Assembly (NCBI GenBank): GCA_030612185.1
Contig: JAUWOI010000051.1
Coordinates: 1 to 14,435, forward strand
Origin: Anaerolineae bacterium
Lineage (GTDB): Bacteria > Chloroflexota > Anaerolineae > B4-G1
DNA: 14,435 nt
Reading direction: 5' to 3'
The position numbers and the translations under genes are program-made. Each line of letters starts with the position of its first letter. The first letter of the stretch is position 1. Shown piece after piece: positions 3,098-11,987 of this stretch. The notes beneath the pieces are model-generated. The model saw only the letters and a program-made list of their open reading frames with translations. It was not told the DNA's origin and searched no databases.

Positions 3098-3103
3098 CGC
3101 TCA

Positions 3104-3167
3104 CTCATTTACTCATTTACTCATCTACTCATTTACTCATCTACTCATTTACTCATCTACTCGTTAA
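3104..3167. repeat. Octamer tandem array A (CTCATTTA/CTCATCTA)
   Basis: Eight consecutive 8-bp units: seven are CTCATTTA or CTCATCTA and the last is the degenerate CTCGTTAA. The array fills the gap between the C25 peptidase and the LTD gene. On the minus strand the unit reads TAAATGAG or TAGATGAG; its TAG at 3159-3157 is the stop codon of the C25 catalytic frame, and the last residues (NE) are also array-derived. A second array of the same unit and orientation lies at 6195-6266. Confidence 0.95.
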
Positions 3168-4413
3168 TTCCTATCCTACTGACCACCGGCAGATACACTT
3201 GTTCGAGCCAATAGGCCAGGCGGGTTGCCGGGTCGCCCAGCAGAACGTAGGTATCTATTAGTGCGACGTGTTCGGGGGCCTGCTGGTACAGGAAGACCTG
3301 GGCGGCCACGGCCGCCAGCCCCAGGTTGGTGACGCCGTCGCTAAAGACGGCTGTGTACCAACCCTGATGGAGCCAGGCGTGCCCGGTTGCTACTCCCTGT
3401 CCGGTGGGCGACCAACTGGCCACGGCTCCCTTATCCGGCGCACGGACCAGGCTCTCCGCCAGCGAGGGGTAGTCCGGCACGTGATAGTAGCCCTCCCAGC
3501 AGGTCATAGGCAGAAAGACCGGGTAGCGGCCGCTGTTGTTCAACTGGGCCAGTTCGCCCAGTCCGAAAAGTTGCTCCTTGGCCCAGTAGTTGATCCAGCC
3601 GTGGCCCACGTAGTTGACCAGGAGGACGCCGTCGTTGATGGCGGCGACGGTGGCCGCGCGAGCACTCTCCGGGGTGGTGTGGGTTGCTCCAAAATAGACT
3701 TTGTGGGCGCTCATCCCGTCGGGCAGCAGATGGTCGGCCACCAGGTCGGAGTAGGCGGCAAAGTCATCAGGGCCATCGGCGTCGTCGGCCACAAAGAGGG
3801 CTCCAGAAGCCGGGTTCCTTCCGAAAAACCCGGCTTCTCCCTCATACGCCAGGATCTTATCCACCACAGCACTCAGTTCGTCCGGCGTGTTGACCGGCAA
3901 CCGGCCCAGCGCCATATCGGGCAGGGGGTCGTCGCCACTGACGGTCACAAAGCGAGTGTCGGCGGCGGTCTCGCCCAGCCAGGGGTCGGCCAGGGTCAGG
4001 TAGGGGGGCAACGGGTTGGCCGCGCCGGTGGACAGGTTGTCCTGGAAATCATAGTGGCCGTCGCCGACCAGCAGGACGTAACTGGGCGCGGGTGGCTGCC
4101 AGGAGGCGTAGGCGTAGGCCAGGAAGTCGCGGATCGCTTCTGCCGACAGTTCCCCGTCGCCGAATTCGTCGTAGACGTCCTGCAGGTCCACCAGTACCAC
4201 CCGCAGCCCCTGGCCCTCCCGGTGGCTGAGCAAGGGCTGGAGCGCACTGTGCAGGCTGGCGGGCGCGATGGCGATGTAGTCCGCGCCGTGGTCGGGAGTG
4301 TGCCAGTCGGAGGGCACATCTTGTTTGATGGTGGGAGTGCATACGGCGGTGGGGCCAGCGGCCAGGTAGACGTGGGGGGTGGGGGAGGGGTCGGTAAACG
4401 TCAAAGGTGACAC
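3157..4413 (-). CDS. C25 (gingipain-family) cysteine peptidase, catalytic C-terminal part (frame-split)
   Basis: This frame encodes the catalytic half of a peptidase C25 protein. Residues 45-125 carry the characteristic sequence ADYIAIAP, then AIRDFLAYAYASW and YVLLVGDGHYD. MALGRLPV lies at 167-174. The likely catalytic His is H271 in NYVGHG and the likely catalytic Cys is C305 in LPMTCWEGYY; LLGDPATRL (391-399) is the usual end of the domain. The last residues include EQVYLPVVSR, a YLPLV-type C-terminal motif. The nominal GTG at 4413 lies inside the heptamer array, has no ribosome-binding site and gives no signal peptide, so independent translation is doubtful. The N-terminal half is the adjacent frame ending at 4401. 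The peptide EAGFFGRNPAS (193-203) is encoded by an inserted palindrome. Family assignment is firm; expression as a functional product is uncertain. Confidence 0.85.
   Translation of the reverse strand: MSPLTFTDPSPTPHVYLAAGPTAVCTPTIKQDVPSDWHTPDHGADYIAIAPASLHSALQPLLSHREGQGLRVVLVDLQDVYDEFGDGELSAEAIRDFLAYAYASWQPPAPSYVLLVGDGHYDFQDNLSTGAANPLPPYLTLADPWLGETAADTRFVTVSGDDPLPDMALGRLPVNTPDELSAVVDKILAYEGEAGFFGRNPASGALFVADDADGPDDFAAYSDLVADHLLPDGMSAHKVYFGATHTTPESARAATVAAINDGVLLVNYVGHGWINYWAKEQLFGLGELAQLNNSGRYPVFLPMTCWEGYYHVPDYPSLAESLVRAPDKGAVASWSPTGQGVATGHAWLHQGWYTAVFSDGVTNLGLAAVAAQVFLYQQAPEHVALIDTYVLLGDPATRLAYWLEQVYLPVVSRIGINE
3805..3838. repeat. 34-bp hairpin, copy 1 (12-bp arms, 10-nt loop)
   Basis: The left arm agaagccgggtt (3805-3816) and right arm aacccggcttct (3827-3838) are perfect reverse complements around a 10-nt loop. 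It lies in coding sequence between the C25 segments VDKILAYEG and ALFVADDADG, where it encodes EAGFFGRNPAS. The same architecture recurs at 5494-5527 in the other half of the gene. From memory, similar elements are common in Chloroflexota and filamentous cyanobacteria. Confidence 0.85.
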
Positions 4414-4531
4414 GTGAGGCGTGAAACGTGAAACGTGAGGCGTGAAACGTGAAACGTGAGGCGTGAAACGTGAGGCGTGAAACGTGAAGCGTCAAGCGTC
4501 AAACGTGAAGCGTCAAACGTCAGAGGTGAAG
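4392..4531. repeat. Heptamer tandem array C (TTTCACG/CCTCACG/TTTGACG), frame-breaking
   Basis: Twenty consecutive 7-bp units with no spacers. On the minus strand the units from 4406 to 4531 are mostly TTTCACG, CCTCACG, CTTCACG and TTTGACG. The array begins with CTTCACC-TCTGACG and ends with TGTCACC-TTTGACG, two similar flanks exactly 17 units (119 bp) apart. The N-terminal C25 frame passes through as repeated SRLTFHV and ends at TGA 4403-4401; the C-terminal frame emerges from the array as SPLTFTDPSP. Confidence 0.97.
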
Positions 4532-6215
4532 TGTGGTGTGTGTTCGTTAGCAGGGTGGGGGAGGTGGGGTTGGCTATGTCGAGGAGGAAGATGGGGTCGG
4601 CGGTGAAGTTGGTCAGTTCGTGGGTGGCGGCTCCGTCGTGGGGCACGGTCAGTGTGTCGCCGGTGGCGGTGGGGGTGCGTTGGTAGGTGAGTTCGAGCCA
4701 GTTGACCAGCGCCGCGTCTGTCGTCGCGCCGGTGTCCGGGACGACCTGCACTTCCAGGTTCTCGTTGAGCGCGCCGCCGTAAACAGGCGGTGAGGTGGCA
4801 TGCGCGCCGCCGTGAACGGGCGGCGCTGGGTCGCAGATCTGCCCATATCCGTTGCTGTCCTGAAATCCGCGTTCTAACATCGCAGACGGAAAGTCGAACG
4901 TCGCCTCGGTTGCCTCTTGCCCGTCCCAGGTCACGTCGCCCAGAGTGTGCCCGTTGAGCAACACGCGGGTGTGATGGTCGGGGTTGATGCCGGGATAGGA
5001 GGTGTACCCCTGGAGCGCGAGACGCAGTGTGGCGGTGTAGTCGCCGCTCGCTGCCCCGGGCGGATAGATTGTGAAGTAGGCTGAGAGGCTATTCTGGTAG
5101 TTCTCCCAGTACCAGTGGTCGGTCTCCTCCAGCATGGGAAGTTGGGAGCGGTAGAGTTCATTTTCCTCAAAGTGCGCAGTGACGGTGTAGGCGGGCGTGG
5201 CCGGGCTGCCGTCGGGTGGGACGGAGCGGGTGAGCATACGTGTCCCGGTTATGCCGCCGTAGGTCAGCCAGTAGATGTTCTCGTCGCCGTAGCGGCTTCT
5301 GCGTTGCTGGCCGTAGAAGTAGAGCGTATCGTCTTCCTCCCAGAGTGAAACCTCTGTGCCGTCGTCCAGCAGGCGTAACGTGACCGGGTCGAGTGTGTCC
5401 ATCGGCAGCCCTGCCGCCGCCAGGTCTGCGTGGGTCAGGCGGTACAGCCCGTCAGCCGATACGGTGACTTTGTACCAGGGGATGTTGTCTTCTAGAAACC
5501 GGGTTGTTCGGAAAAAACCCGGTTTCTGCCGCCATACGCGAGCCTGCTCGTAGTTCACCAGGGCGCGGGCCAGTACCGGTTCCCACAGCGGATGCTCCGG
5601 CCTAATCGCCGTCGAATGCGTCGCCGTCGAATGCGTCGCCGTCGAATGAATTCGACGGCTGATATGGGAAACCCGTTCAAACGGGTTAAGCCCAATAAGC
5701 GCAACACGTTTTAACGTGTTTTGAGTGGCAGGCCCCGAATTCATTCGGGGCTCGAACGTTCGGGGCATTCGGGGCTCGAACACGATCTGCACATCGGCGT
5801 AGGGAGGCGCGGCCTCGATATGCTCGCTATCCTCGTCGCCGGTGTGCCTCAACCGCACGGCGGCGAAGGGCTGATCGCGCAAGCGGCCGGTGAGCGCCAC
5901 CTCCACCTCCAGCGGCAAGCGATCGTCGAGCAGTTGGGCCGAGACCTCAGCGCCAGCGGGGATGCCGACGAGCACGATGCGCTCTTCTCCTTTACGGGGG
6001 GTAGGCGTGACCCGCAACAACAGGCCAATGTCACTGGTCTCCAGGAGCACGGCGCCAGGCCCGCCGCCCGTGACGCGAGCAACCGGCGGCGACATCAGAC
6101 ACAGGCCGATGATAGGCAGATTCAGCAGAGCGTGATTCTGTAGTGACGACTTCAGTCGTCCTAGCGCGAGTGCGACTGAAGTCGCTACTACGAGCCCATT
6201 TACTCGTCTACTCAT
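4401..6215 (-). CDS. C25 peptidase-family protein, N-terminal part (frame-split)
   Basis: This 604-residue frame is the N-terminal half of the C25 peptidase protein whose catalytic part follows at 4413-3157. Residues 244-330 (NIPWYKVTVSADGLYRLTH, then LRLLDDGTEVSLW and YWLTYGG) and 350-440 (ELYRSQLP, HWYWENY, DHHTRVLLNGH) match the regions that precede C25 domains in Chloroflexota proteins. Homologues run on into the catalytic domain; here the frame enters a heptamer array at about residue 566 and stops at 4401. The ATG at 6215 lies in octamer array B without a clear ribosome-binding site, and residues 1-27 are repeat-encoded. M41 (6095), or a lost start before the hydrophobic ALLNLPIIGLCL (29-40), may be nearer the original signal peptide. 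Other repeat-derived insertions lie at about 146-205, 230-242 and 448-482. The family is clear; start and integrity are doubtful. Confidence 0.8.
   Translation of the reverse strand: MSRRVNGLVVATSVALALGRLKSSLQNHALLNLPIIGLCLMSPPVARVTGGGPGAVLLETSDIGLLLRVTPTPRKGEERIVLVGIPAGAEVSAQLLDDRLPLEVEVALTGRLRDQPFAAVRLRHTGDEDSEHIEAAPPYADVQIVFEPRMPRTFEPRMNSGPATQNTLKRVALIGLNPFERVSHISRRIHSTATHSTATHSTAIRPEHPLWEPVLARALVNYEQARVWRQKPGFFRTTRFLEDNIPWYKVTVSADGLYRLTHADLAAAGLPMDTLDPVTLRLLDDGTEVSLWEEDDTLYFYGQQRRSRYGDENIYWLTYGGITGTRMLTRSVPPDGSPATPAYTVTAHFEENELYRSQLPMLEETDHWYWENYQNSLSAYFTIYPPGAASGDYTATLRLALQGYTSYPGINPDHHTRVLLNGHTLGDVTWDGQEATEATFDFPSAMLERGFQDSNGYGQICDPAPPVHGGAHATSPPVYGGALNENLEVQVVPDTGATTDAALVNWLELTYQRTPTATGDTLTVPHDGAATHELTNFTADPIFLLDIANPTSPTLLTNTHHTSPLTFDASRLTLDASRFTPHVSRLTFHVSRLTFHVSRLTCHL
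4769..4825. repeat. Two 24-bp palindromic repeats, 33 bp apart, in C25 N-terminal half
   Basis: Copies at 4769-4792 and 4802-4825 match at 21 of 24 positions (gcgcgccgccgt-aac-ggcgg) and each can pair ccgcc with ggcgg around a short gt-aac loop. The 33-bp offset keeps frame, so the protein shows PPVHGGA and PPVYGGA eleven residues apart. They adjoin the 34-bp element at 4846-4879. Confidence 0.75.
4846..4879. repeat. 34-bp dispersed element, copy in C25 gene
   Basis: This stretch matches 11599-11632 at 32 of 34 bases in the same orientation. Here it encodes ERGFQDSNG in the C25 N-terminal half; the other copy encodes ERGFQDNNG at the end of the CheY-like gene. The distance between copies (6753 bp) is a multiple of 3, so both are read in the same frame. 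Confidence 0.9.
5494..5527. repeat. 34-bp hairpin, copy 2 (12-bp arms, 10-nt loop)
   Basis: The arms agaaaccgggtt (5494-5505) and aacccggtttct (5516-5527) are perfect reverse complements around a 10-nt loop, the same layout as 3805-3838. It encodes QKPGFFRTTRFLE between NYEQARVWR and DNIPWYKVTV, a point where the C25-associated family normally has a short linker. Confidence 0.85.
5606..5659. repeat. Three 15-bp tandem repeats ending in a 22-bp palindrome
   Basis: Three copies of a 15-bp unit (tcgccgtcgaatgcg and a variant) run from 5606 to 5650. The last leads into the hairpin gccgtcgaa-tgaa-ttcgacggc (5638-5659, 9-bp arms, 4-nt loop). Because 15 is a multiple of 3, the protein simply shows repeated HSTAT (about residues 190-203). 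Confidence 0.85.
5670..5720. repeat. Two short palindromes with 4-nt A/T-rich loops
   Basis: aacccgt-tcaa-acgggtt (5670-5687) and aacacgt-ttta-acgtgtt (5703-5720) are perfect 7-bp-arm hairpins with the same geometry but different arm sequences. Both are read through in the C25 N-terminal frame, giving NTLKRV and NPFERV. Confidence 0.8.
5732..5782. repeat. Palindrome plus partial direct duplication (gccccgaa family)
   Basis: gccccgaa-ttca-ttcggggc (5732-5751) is an 8-bp-arm, 4-nt-loop hairpin. It is followed by a second copy of the cattcggggctcgaac segment, so the protein contains FEPRM twice (about residues 146-158). It belongs to the same cluster of 4-nt-loop palindromes as 5638-5720. Confidence 0.75.
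6141..6190. repeat. 50-bp imperfect inverted repeat at the 5' end of the C25 gene
   Basis: The arms tagtgacgacttcagtcg (6141-6158) and cgactgaagtcgctacta (6173-6190) match at 16 of 18 positions around a 14-nt loop; each arm contains the near-palindrome cgacttcagtcg. It lies between octamer array B and the hydrophobic segment of the C25 protein and would encode about VVATSVALALGRLKSSLQ if the 6215 start is used. If translation starts later, this hairpin is intergenic and could cap the 3' end of the upstream transcript. Confidence 0.85.
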
Positions 6216-6266
6216 TTACTCATTTACTCATTTACTCGTCTACTCGTCTACTCATTTACTCGTCTG
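6195..6266. repeat. Octamer tandem array B (CTCATTTA/CTCGTCTA)
   Basis: Nine 8-bp units (CTCATTTA, CTCGTCTA and degenerate end units) fill the gap between the stop of the 1486-residue protein (6275) and the C25 frame. The unit and orientation match array A at 3104-3167. On the minus strand, tandem TAAATGAG places stop codons and ATGs in all three frames over 24 bp; the apparent C25 start (6215-6213) is one of these ATGs. Confidence 0.95.
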
Positions 6267-10735: not shown

Positions 10736-10741
10736 AACATG

Positions 10742-10747
10742 CTCCTT
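10742..10747 (-). promoter_or_regulatory. Ribosome-binding site that fixes the giant-protein start
   Basis: AAGGAG on the minus strand is six bases before the ATG at 10735. It decides against the in-frame upstream GTG at 10804, which lies inside a heptamer array and would put an array-encoded peptide ahead of the signal sequence. Confidence 0.85.
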
Positions 10748-10748
10748 A

Positions 10749-10818
10749 ATGCGTGATGCGTGAAACGTGTTGCGTGTTGCGTGATTTGACGTTTGACGTT
10801 TCACGTTTCACGTTTCAC
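10749..10818. repeat. Heptamer array D, inverted (xxxCGTG then GTTTCAC)
   Basis: Ten 7-bp units lie between the nucleotidyltransferase and the giant secreted protein. Five read as atgcgtg, aaacgtg or ttgcgtg, then five as atttgac, gtttgac or gtttcac. The halves are partly complementary: gtgaaacgtg (10760-10769) pairs perfectly with cacgtttcac (10802-10811 or 10809-10818), so the transcript could fold into a long hairpin. The right end encodes the nucleotidyltransferase tail KRET and its TGA stop. Confidence 0.85.
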
Positions 10819-11574
10819 ATTAGCCAGCAGCGGCTCCAGATAGTCGAAGTTCAGCCGCAGGATGTCCCGCTGGTCGGTCAGATTGGGAGCCAGAGGCTCA
10901 ATCTTGCCCATCACGCGCAGCCCGTCGGCGATCATCATGGCGACGACGTCAGTGAGTTCGTGCTCGCCCCGGCTCGAAAGTTCGACGCGGGGCAGGTAGT
11001 CAGGCAGCGATGGTGGGTAGATGTGCAGTGGCGCGCCGGCCACATCGCTGGGGGCGGTGCCGGGCGCAGGCTTTTCGACGATGCGCGTGATCTGGCCTCC
11101 CTGCCCCGGCGGCACCGTCTCGTCCGGCACGAACGATACCGAACTGGTGGCGGCCAGCCGTTCCACGGGCACGCGCTTGAGGCTGATGCTCAGATCGGCG
11201 CTCGTTCGCCGGTGGAATTCGACCAGCCCGCCGATGTGGTTCGGTCCAAAGGCGGTGTCCCCGGCCAGCACCATCGTCTCGCCGTCTATAAAATCCAATG
11301 CCTGCATCACGGCGTGGGCGGTGCCCAGCCGCTCCTTTTGCTCTCGGTAGGTCAGGTTCACGCCGTAGGCGCTGCCATCTCCCAGGAAATGGCGCATCTT
11401 GTCCGCCAGGTGGCCGATGATGACCAGCACGTCGGTGACGCCGGCGGCCTGCAGGTTGATCAGCAGCGTGCCGATGACCGGCTGTCCACCGATGGGGAGC
11501 AAGGGTTTAGGGACCCACTCGGTGATGGGGCGCAGCCGTTTGCCCTTGCCCGCGGCCATGATAATCGCTTTCAT
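10801..11574 (-). CDS. Sugar-1-phosphate nucleotidyltransferase (NDP-sugar pyrophosphorylase-like)
   Basis: This 257-residue protein belongs to the nucleotidyltransferase family that makes NDP-sugars from an NTP and a sugar-1-phosphate. It has the nucleotide-binding AAGKGKRLRP (7-16), KPLLPIGG (23-30), the REQKERLGTAHAV region (77-89) and the metal-ligand Asp in VLAGDTAF (D106), followed by a ribose/sugar-binding RIVEKP segment near 170. Only the catalytic domain is present, with no C-terminal acyltransferase beta-helix. The sugar and base specificity (glucose, mannose or another) cannot be read from the sequence. The start at 11574 gives the canonical MKAIIMAAG; a longer in-frame reading overlaps the receiver gene and has no family support. 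It follows the receiver gene by 23 bp in the same direction, so it is probably co-transcribed with the glycosyltransferase upstream. The tail KRET and the stop are supplied by heptamer array D. Confidence 0.9.
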   Translation of the reverse strand: MKAIIMAAGKGKRLRPITEWVPKPLLPIGGQPVIGTLLINLQAAGVTDVLVIIGHLADKMRHFLGDGSAYGVNLTYREQKERLGTAHAVMQALDFIDGETMVLAGDTAFGPNHIGGLVEFHRRTSADLSISLKRVPVERLAATSSVSFVPDETVPPGQGGQITRIVEKPAPGTAPSDVAGAPLHIYPPSLPDYLPRVELSSRGEHELTDVVAMMIADGLRVMGKIEPLAPNLTDQRDILRLNFDYLEPLLANVKRET

Positions 11575-11597
11575 GTCCTTATCGCCCTTGGATTGCC

Positions 11598-11987
11598 CTA
11601 TCCGTTGTTGTCCTGAAATCCGCGTTCTGACAAATGCTGCCGGATGATCGCGAGTAACTGTTGGGATTGGAAGGGTTTGGGTATGAGCCCATTCGCGCCG
11701 GCTGCCTGTATCTCGGCAGCGTCTGCGGGTCCCAGGCGGGCGCTGGCCATAAGCACCGGCAATGAACGGGTGGCCGGATCGGCCCGCAGGGTGCGGAGGG
11801 CTTCCATACCATCCACCTTGGGCATGTTGCGGTCCATAATCACCAGGTCTGGTTTCTCGGCCGCGACCTTGTCCAAACCCTCCTGCCCATCGGCACTGCA
11901 TACTACCTCGTACCCGGCTGCTTGTAAGACCTGCTGGAGCAAGCGCCGCATAAGAGCGGAATCGTCAACGACGAGTATTTTGGTCAA
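11598..11987 (-). CDS. Stand-alone CheY-like response-regulator receiver
   Basis: This 129-residue receiver domain has no output domain. The acidic pair is D8-D9 (ILVVDD), the phosphoacceptor is D52 (VIMDRNMP), S82 (LMASA) holds the switch Ser/Thr position and K104 (IPKPF) is the conserved lysine, so phosphorylation competence is expected. The start is a TTG at 11987, supported by AAAGGAG seven bases upstream; the upstream ATG nearest that site is in a different frame. It lies 3 bp after the helical-repeat gene and before the nucleotidyltransferase, so it may relay a signal to polysaccharide synthesis, but no histidine kinase is in the window. The last nine residues, ERGFQDNNG, come from a 34-bp dispersed repeat also found in the C25 peptidase gene, so the natural C-terminus was probably near IIRQHLS. 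Confidence 0.93.
   Translation of the reverse strand: MTKILVVDDSALMRRLLQQVLQAAGYEVVCSADGQEGLDKVAAEKPDLVIMDRNMPKVDGMEALRTLRADPATRSLPVLMASARLGPADAAEIQAAGANGLIPKPFQSQQLLAIIRQHLSERGFQDNNG
11599..11632. repeat. 34-bp dispersed element, copy at the receiver C-terminus
   Basis: It matches 4846-4879 at 32 of 34 bases, same orientation and same reading frame. Here it supplies the last residues and, by the variant GGATAG instead of GGATATG, the stop codon of the receiver gene. Confidence 0.9.

Follow-up and report, generated by a model that had tools for sequence, protein, structure and literature searches.

Rickettsia palindromic elements are dispersed repeats that are inserted in frame into proteins, and the heptanucleotide repeat of HMW1A is reportedly located in the promoter. 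In Xanthomonas and Nostoc, dispersed heptanucleotide repeats, (GGGAATC)n and its relatives, are mostly intergenic and form G-quadruplexes, and arrays in X. campestris run from 2 to 26 units with lengths that vary among close relatives, according to the available text of that study (PMC4692102). The TAACTGA direct repeats of Beggiatoaceae and cyanobacteria are dispersed as well and lie mostly upstream of genes; their orientation within ORFs is limited by stops, which the forward orientation carries in all frames, and the repeats are tolerated mainly at the protein periphery (PMC4679880, available part). Among prokaryote satellites, some abundant bacterial families derive from heptamer or hexamer repeats and many encode amino acid repeats; Chloroflexus aurantiacus is tabulated as satellite-rich, with 14.4 per Mb (PMC6749651). 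The available part of that paper describes neither a TTTCACG family nor a frame test of in-gene heptamers. Slipped-strand phase variation by repeats within reading frames is an established class (PMC3711429, available part). Dispersed heptamers, coding satellites and frame-moving repeats are known already, but in the parts of the open-licence PMC literature that we searched we found no description of TTTCACG-type arrays in Chloroflexota genes, nor of any heptamer family with one stop-free strand whose arrays are read in frame within many proteins of Chloroflexota.

Here, we describe such a family, starting from one copy in a stretch of 14,435 nucleotides from an Anaerolineae bacterium, hereafter called the window. 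Like (GGGAATC)n, the TTTCACG-type repeat forms length-variable heptamer arrays that are scattered genome-wide, but it is intragenic, in frame in many genes of one genome, G294 (compare PMC4692102, available text). Like TAACTGA, it is a dispersed heptamer family, whereas its unit is stop-free in one orientation and is found in the protein interior (compare PMC4679880, available text). Thus, heptamer arrays that are mostly intergenic in these two studies, as far as their available text describes, occur here inside proteins, even in a PheT-like tRNA synthetase subunit. With slipped-strand phase-variable genes (PMC3711429, available text) the copy in the window shares a repeat whose unit is not a multiple of three and which lies within the frame of a predicted exported protein, where a change in unit number shifts the frame. 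It differs in that the array is degenerate, belongs to a dispersed family that is in frame in housekeeping genes, and is known from the window as a single sequence.

The array separates two ORFs on the minus strand of the window. The N-terminal ORF (4401..6215, 604 aa) enters the array and ends there with a stop at 4403, and the catalytic ORF (3157..4413, 418 aa) has its first possible start, a GTG, within the array. The two overlap by 13 nt, and both otherwise appear intact, with no additional stop in either. The catalytic ORF matched Peptidase_C25 (PF01364) over the full-length domain (E 1.5e-82, residues 46-399, profile positions 1-374 of 374). Its His271 and Cys305, which are invariant in an alignment of five sequences (A2) and align to the HG and TC of PorU, are what we take to be the catalytic pair of C25. 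The N-terminal ORF had no Pfam match, and two PorU-type NCBIfam models matched it over short N-terminal stretches only, under the model cut-offs. The catalytic domain has the GHG and TC motifs in common with PorU/gingipain C25 peptidases (PDB 6za2, 1cvr, 4ief), although the window sequence is remote from these (best E 1.1e-14) and its N-terminal half differs in the limited reach of the PorU-type models. The protein is predicted to be an exported peptidase of the PorU/gingipain type. A plasmid search for C25 returned two records, both remote.

The heptamer array (4399..4531, minus strand) consists of 19 whole units, or 133 nt, with the coding-strand consensus TTTCACG/CCTCACG. On the minus strand it opens with CTTCACC (4531-4525), and its 3' end adjoins TTTACCG (4398-4392), which starts the FTDP codons. 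Tandem Repeats Finder reported it as 17.9 copies of period 7 (4396-4520) and as 10 copies of period 14 (4396-4535); when 200 sequences were simulated with a first-order Markov model based on the window, no more than two units in a row arose by chance. The N-terminal frame is open from 6215 down to its sole stop at 4403, and the catalytic frame runs into two TGA codons within the 5' portion of the array (4515-4513 and 4494-4492, feature 4492..4515, minus strand) and is thereafter open as far as 3159. A single reading frame requires a length of 2 mod 3, and the two frames do not join because 133 nt is 1 mod 3. The sequence-only reading of this locus had placed the meeting point of the frames 6215-4401 and 4413-3157 at a 7-bp array, which both the repeat calls and the frame reading bear out. 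It had also stated that one additional unit or the loss of two would give one protein of 1021 or 1014 residues, and this arithmetic holds: the coding stretch from 6215 to 3160 has 3056 nt, which amounts to 1021 codons once 7 nt are added and to 1014 once 14 nt are removed. As in SSR phase-variable genes, the array is a tandem repeat inside a reading frame with a unit that is not a multiple of three.

The units of this array are mixed (TTTCACG, CCTCACG, CTTCACG, TTTGACG, CTTGACG and a few variants), and they differ in what they allow. Pure arrays of TTTCACG, CCTCACG or CTTCACG are stop-free in all three frames of the coding strand, and each frame encodes one heptapeptide, rotated, so that the peptide (F/P/L)H(V/A)SR(F/L)T is identical in all three frames. 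The reverse strand of the same arrays has a TGA in each frame. A TTTGACG-type unit brings a stop in one frame, and pure TTTGACG and CTTGACG arrays have a TGA in each frame of the coding strand, one per three units. Within the array of the window, the longest exact repeat spans 41 nt with a frame-neutral offset of 21 nt, followed by repeats of 27 nt (offset 35) and 26 nt (offset 14).

Homologues of the two ORFs are mostly encoded in one piece. A protein search with the N-terminal ORF found an intact protein of 933 aa (P0122) in which the N-terminal and catalytic halves are fused, and to which the catalytic ORF of the window has 88% identity; the earlier proposal that the two ORFs are halves of one C25 protein is thus supported by an intact, close orthologue. 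The more distant proteins matched by the N-terminal ORF were mostly fused as well. Two further proteins cover one half each: P0121 (591 aa) has the N half only, is 97% identical to the N-terminal ORF (alignment A1) and ends inside the array, and P0001 (424 aa), found with the catalytic ORF, is 96% identical to it (A2) and begins inside the array. The longest contigs for P0121 and P0001 have 6643 and 2081 bases, respectively. Their ends within the array could be assembly breaks, which would weaken trust in the count of the window, or they could represent a second split allele, which would point beyond an accident.

The stretch between the same anchors measures 68 nt in P0122 and 133 nt in the window, the P0122 array being known from the protein alone. 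As 68 nt is 2 mod 3, P0122 is in frame. The difference of 65 nt is also 2 mod 3 and is not a whole number of units, and therefore P0122 and the window differ by something besides unit number too. As among the alleles of SSR genes, array length varies between relatives and alters the frame, with P0122 being an orthologue from another organism and not a sister clone. Judged from these sequences, array length at the C25 locus varies and sets the frame.

Among the 137 proteins of the two C25 searches, the array was clear in P0001, P0121 and P0122 only; P0070 had one single 6-mer match. The N-terminal ORF had matches in 233 of 396 genomes sampled from the class of genome G001, and all were stop-free among the matches listed. 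In the order of G240, 18 of 20 genomes matched P0122 below 1e-60 and 54 of the 55 matches were stop-free, though not all span the junction. In none of 21 inspected C25 loci, not all of which need reach the junction, did we find even two tandem array units. No close relative of the C25 locus was found among the genomes searched: a scan of genome contigs returned three C25 loci with 33-47% identity, and the best identity was 50% in the 396 genomes of the class and 46% in the order of G240. On this evidence the array resembles an insertion particular to one lineage, in a gene that otherwise forms a single ORF. The sequence-only reading had named two outcomes that would speak against it, namely array-less homologues that are also split at this point and a unit number that is fixed in all molecules and relatives. 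Neither is what we observed, given the 54 of 55 unsplit matches, the 21 loci without the array and the different array lengths of the orthologues. The MgtE_N-like neighbour was matched in G240 only among 396 genomes, at 1e-15, and a search for a PelF-type glycosyltransferase in the order of G078 found 0 of 6 at 1e-60.

The position of the array in the protein was viewed in an AlphaFold model of P0122 (mean pLDDT 74.9, 30 sequences). The array residues (about 499-519) have no secondary structure in this model and lie between the strands 496-498 and 518-523. Confidence falls below 50 at 501-505 and 510-513, with means of 84 and 90 in the flanking blocks. Since the array falls in a predicted loop, an in-frame array is plausibly a harmless extension of that loop.

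Next, we focused on the distribution of the heptamer beyond this gene. The heptamer pattern CGTTTCACGTTTCACG was found in 8 of 24 genomes in the family of G001, and its reversed control in none. In the sample of 396 genomes of the class, arrays of four or more units turned up in 61, with as many as 508 overlapping matches in a single genome (G129), while the reversed control matched in 7. In relatives of the window the heptamer thus has the many copies, above control, of a dispersed family. The window itself contains two heptamer arrays. The second (10736..10821, plus strand) lies in the 5' region of an ORF of 1509 aa and has four in-phase units at 10785-10812. The listed start of this ORF, GTG 10804, lies within the array, and by eye the downstream ATG of MNNYTLF looks like the true start. 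An intergenic location, which is typical of dispersed heptamer families, does not apply to the C25 copy, which is intragenic. In other genomes, none of 29 arrays in G001, G017 and G026 (5 at edges and not classifiable) and none of 26 in G129, which belongs to the same order as G240, was assigned to a gene on the strand of the array. In G129 (L120-L133, L191-L196), 13 of the 26 arrays of at least four units are upstream of a same-strand gene, and the longest has 28 units. A second heptamer, TTTACGA, with 4-5 perfect units, lies near TTTCACG-type arrays in G294 (L095, L097, L110, L112, L114), where it is read in the same ORFs and gives a TIYDLRF-type peptide.

When the array part of the N-terminal ORF was used as a query, 54 proteins were found at E values up to 10, P0122 among them. 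In the other 53, the array-encoded peptide was internal in 45, near the N-terminus in 6 and near the C-terminus in 2. Eight of the 54 are labelled PMT-type glycosyltransferase, PF13231 or PF02366; source names of others include O-antigen ligase, FAD-binding, 2Fe-2S domain, TadD-like and beta-propeller. These proteins are no test of frame, because they were found through their open frame. Twenty of them were taken in full sequence. Some do not fit the picture of an array that is internal and in frame: P0143 ends 4 residues past the array, the sequence after the array in P0150 is by eye unlike a continuing protein, and the long repetitive ORFs P0138 and P0139 may be spurious. Three proteins that carry the array peptide (P0149, P0167, P0184) have FAD-binding and 2Fe-2S labels together. 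By eye, the array peptide of P0149 links its FAD-binding part to its 2Fe-2S part, a hint that two genes can become fused through an array lying between them.

To see how in-gene arrays relate to the reading frame, we counted arrays of four units or more whose coding strand was clear from codon scores over 240 nt on each side. In all, 98 arrays from ten genomes were classified. G294, whose contigs reach 2.15 Mb, contributed 38 arrays of this size. Of these, 27 are inside a gene and have the stop-free orientation, each of them in frame, across 25 ORFs of 493-1556 aa. Among the remaining G294 arrays, 7 precede a same-strand gene, 1 precedes a gene on the other strand, 1 is downstream and 1 is non-coding on both sides; one more (L098) was called in-gene, opposite strand and out of frame, and sits between two different genes. 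A Pfam scan covered 9 of the 25 array-bearing ORFs. In a PheT-like ORF the array (489-498) lies within the B5 domain match (450-532), in a CobN ORF (554-563) it lies within the CobN match (287-1534), and in an SbcC-like ORF it lies between the N-terminal and C-terminal matches, which supports that these ORFs are real genes. A further three in-gene arrays that are clear (in G077, G207 and G283) are also in frame. Repeats of SSR switches should be confined to contingency genes, with OFF copies seen; in G294 we found neither this confinement, as PheT, CobN and SbcC-like genes are included, nor an OFF copy among the 27. To the extent of this test, most of it on G294, in-gene arrays stay in frame, with the window as the exception.

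Outside the window, five arrays were called out of frame, one on the same strand (L164 in G147) and four on the opposite strand (L098 in G294, L121 and L130 in G129, L165 in G147). Eleven arrays classed as both coding and ambiguous were left out of the in-frame count (8 in G147, 1 each in G055, G129 and G283); the two frames agree in 2 of the 8 from G147. Pfam scans on the out-of-frame arrays and the eight ambiguous ones of G147 covered 20 ORFs of nine G147 loci and 8 ORFs of four loci. In the four opposite-strand calls, each array lies between two different genes; the flanking pairs are PALP/tRNA-synt_1b, penicillin-binding protein/SurE, Glucosamine_iso/transaldolase and zf-HC2/Toast_rack_N. 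The same-strand call L164 has NAPRTase on the other strand, ending or beginning at or near the array. Genes on the other strand also end or begin at or near the array at L166 (MacB/FtsX), L167 (two PFK genes), L172 (AAA/Lon_C), L177 (radical SAM) and L182 (DNA ligase). At L174 (NAD synthase) the array is ahead of the domain in the same ORF, at L175 a biotin carboxylase ORF stops before the array, and the ORFs scanned at L180 had no Pfam match. In G017, two ORFs pass through an array in frame: L040 has 3 units, below the threshold, and L050 has 4 units and was not classed as in-gene.

The explanation that we favour, with a probability of somewhat less than one half (about 0.47), is that the array in the window is an incidental and recent loss-of-frame allele, reversible by slippage in principle, and not an evolved on/off switch. 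A slippage-prone TTTCACG-type repeat that is dispersed in Chloroflexota would have lodged in a surface beta-hairpin loop of the C25 peptidase, between the N-terminal part and the catalytic domain. It could grow inside the gene because one orientation is stop-free and encodes the same seven-residue peptide in all frames. Steps of three units would preserve the frame and steps of one or two would shift everything downstream, leaving orthologues with different lengths and the window copy with one that takes its catalytic domain out of frame. The heptamer family would spread or grow where the harm is small, and selection would remove frame-breaking lengths in genes that matter. Within this explanation, slippage would be the cause of the length changes, the 19-unit length would be real in the cell, no intact peptidase would be made from this copy, and the loss of frame would be recent. 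Given that in-gene arrays elsewhere are in frame, an accidental break or a miscount seems to describe the array in the window better than a proven switch does. However, a single sequence of an evolved switch would look identical to such a loss of frame. The frame-breaking length itself may have escaped removal by selection, the protease having been lost recently or its loss being tolerated; otherwise the count is wrong or the gene toggles.

A wrong count, with the true genome in frame and units gained or lost in the assembly or consensus, is the close rival, less probable than the loss of frame but with several observations on its side. In G026, arrays lie near contig ends above expectation (11 of 28 within 500 bases, 4.2 expected). 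Of the 10 arrays listed for G077, 4 or more touch a contig end (the starts of C184, C401 and C474 and the end of C49). The two halves of the closest relative come from different contigs, which may break in the array. Moreover, both halves in the window resemble a functional gene, and in-gene arrays that are clear in other genomes keep the frame. Against this, the longest exact repeat in the array is 41 nt and the mixed units hinder a clean collapse; a repeat of 41 nt is resolvable by common assembly word lengths and read lengths. The sequence-only reading had described the locus as having the structure expected of a phase-variable exported protease. An evolved switch, in which slippage of the array toggles the exported peptidase in the population and the window is the OFF sequence, is unlikely in our assessment. 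The unit that is not a multiple of three, the predicted exported peptidase with its conserved catalytic domain, the length difference between orthologues and a repeat that brings no stop all fit it. Yet the array is one copy of a family dispersed in many genomes and not specific to the locus, and the longest internal repeat favours frame-neutral steps of 21 nt. The same arrays are in frame in PheT, CobN and SbcC-like genes, where toggling makes little sense, and a set of switches should include OFF copies, which the 27 of 27 clear in-gene arrays of G294 do not. With neither an OFF share nor a preference for dispensable surface genes there, in-gene arrays as switches are unsupported in that genome. 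The structure of a dedicated switch is therefore not borne out, and the plain disruption or repeat miscount that the sequence-only reading mentioned as a caveat is at least equally likely.

There is also a broader idea that we likewise consider improbable. In this scheme, the stop-free heptamer with the same peptide in all frames would be a genome-wide coding insertion in Chloroflexota, in frame in essential genes and drifting in dispensable exported proteins, where it would produce heritable ON/OFF states, an undirected but usable phase variation. Far less probable still is that the catalytic half is made separately by a restart at GTG 4413 in the array and then pairs with the N-terminal half. 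The 13-nt overlap of the ORFs permits translational coupling, but by eye there is no purine-rich ribosome site ahead of this GTG, the catalytic half would be without the N-terminal export signal, and the homologues are fused. In-protein arrays of this kind offer a natural test of how selection keeps 7-bp repeats in frame, and the window shows the outcome where it does not. Should the count of 19 units be confirmed, one could ask directly at this locus whether uncultured Chloroflexota frame-switch exported proteases.

Other repeats were found in and around the C25 gene. Octamer arrays lie at the start of the N-terminal ORF (CATTTACT, 6197..6261) and at the end of the catalytic ORF (ACTCATTT, 3103..3162). 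A 37-nt repeat, 92% identical between copies, occurs at 4843-4879 in the N-terminal ORF, where it encodes ERGFQDSNGYG, and at 11596-11632 at the end of a response-regulator ORF; in the C25 protein it falls within a stretch that is absent from the remote homologues P0123 and P0125. Each C25 half has one copy of a 40-nt palindromic repeat with an AACCCGG core (3802-3841 and 5491-5530, 75% identical), and both copies are in an open frame, encoding GEAGFFGRNP and RQKPGFFRTTRF. Several dispersed repeats appear to have entered the C25 gene. Among the 190 loci examined for palindromic repeats of the window, AACCCGGYTTCT was found in none, CGGATTTCAGGAC in 2 overlapping loci and GCGACTGAAGTCGC in 2 loci, both in G129. 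A palindrome around GACTTCAGTCG (6140-6191) covers about residues 9-25 of the N-terminal ORF, where the start of P0122 is different, and its 14-base core recurs in two G129 loci. Lastly, a 15-bp tandem repeat at 5606-5648 encodes HSTATHSTATHSTA in the N-terminal ORF and has fewer copies in P0121 and P0122, so that in-frame repeat variation exists elsewhere in the C25 gene too.
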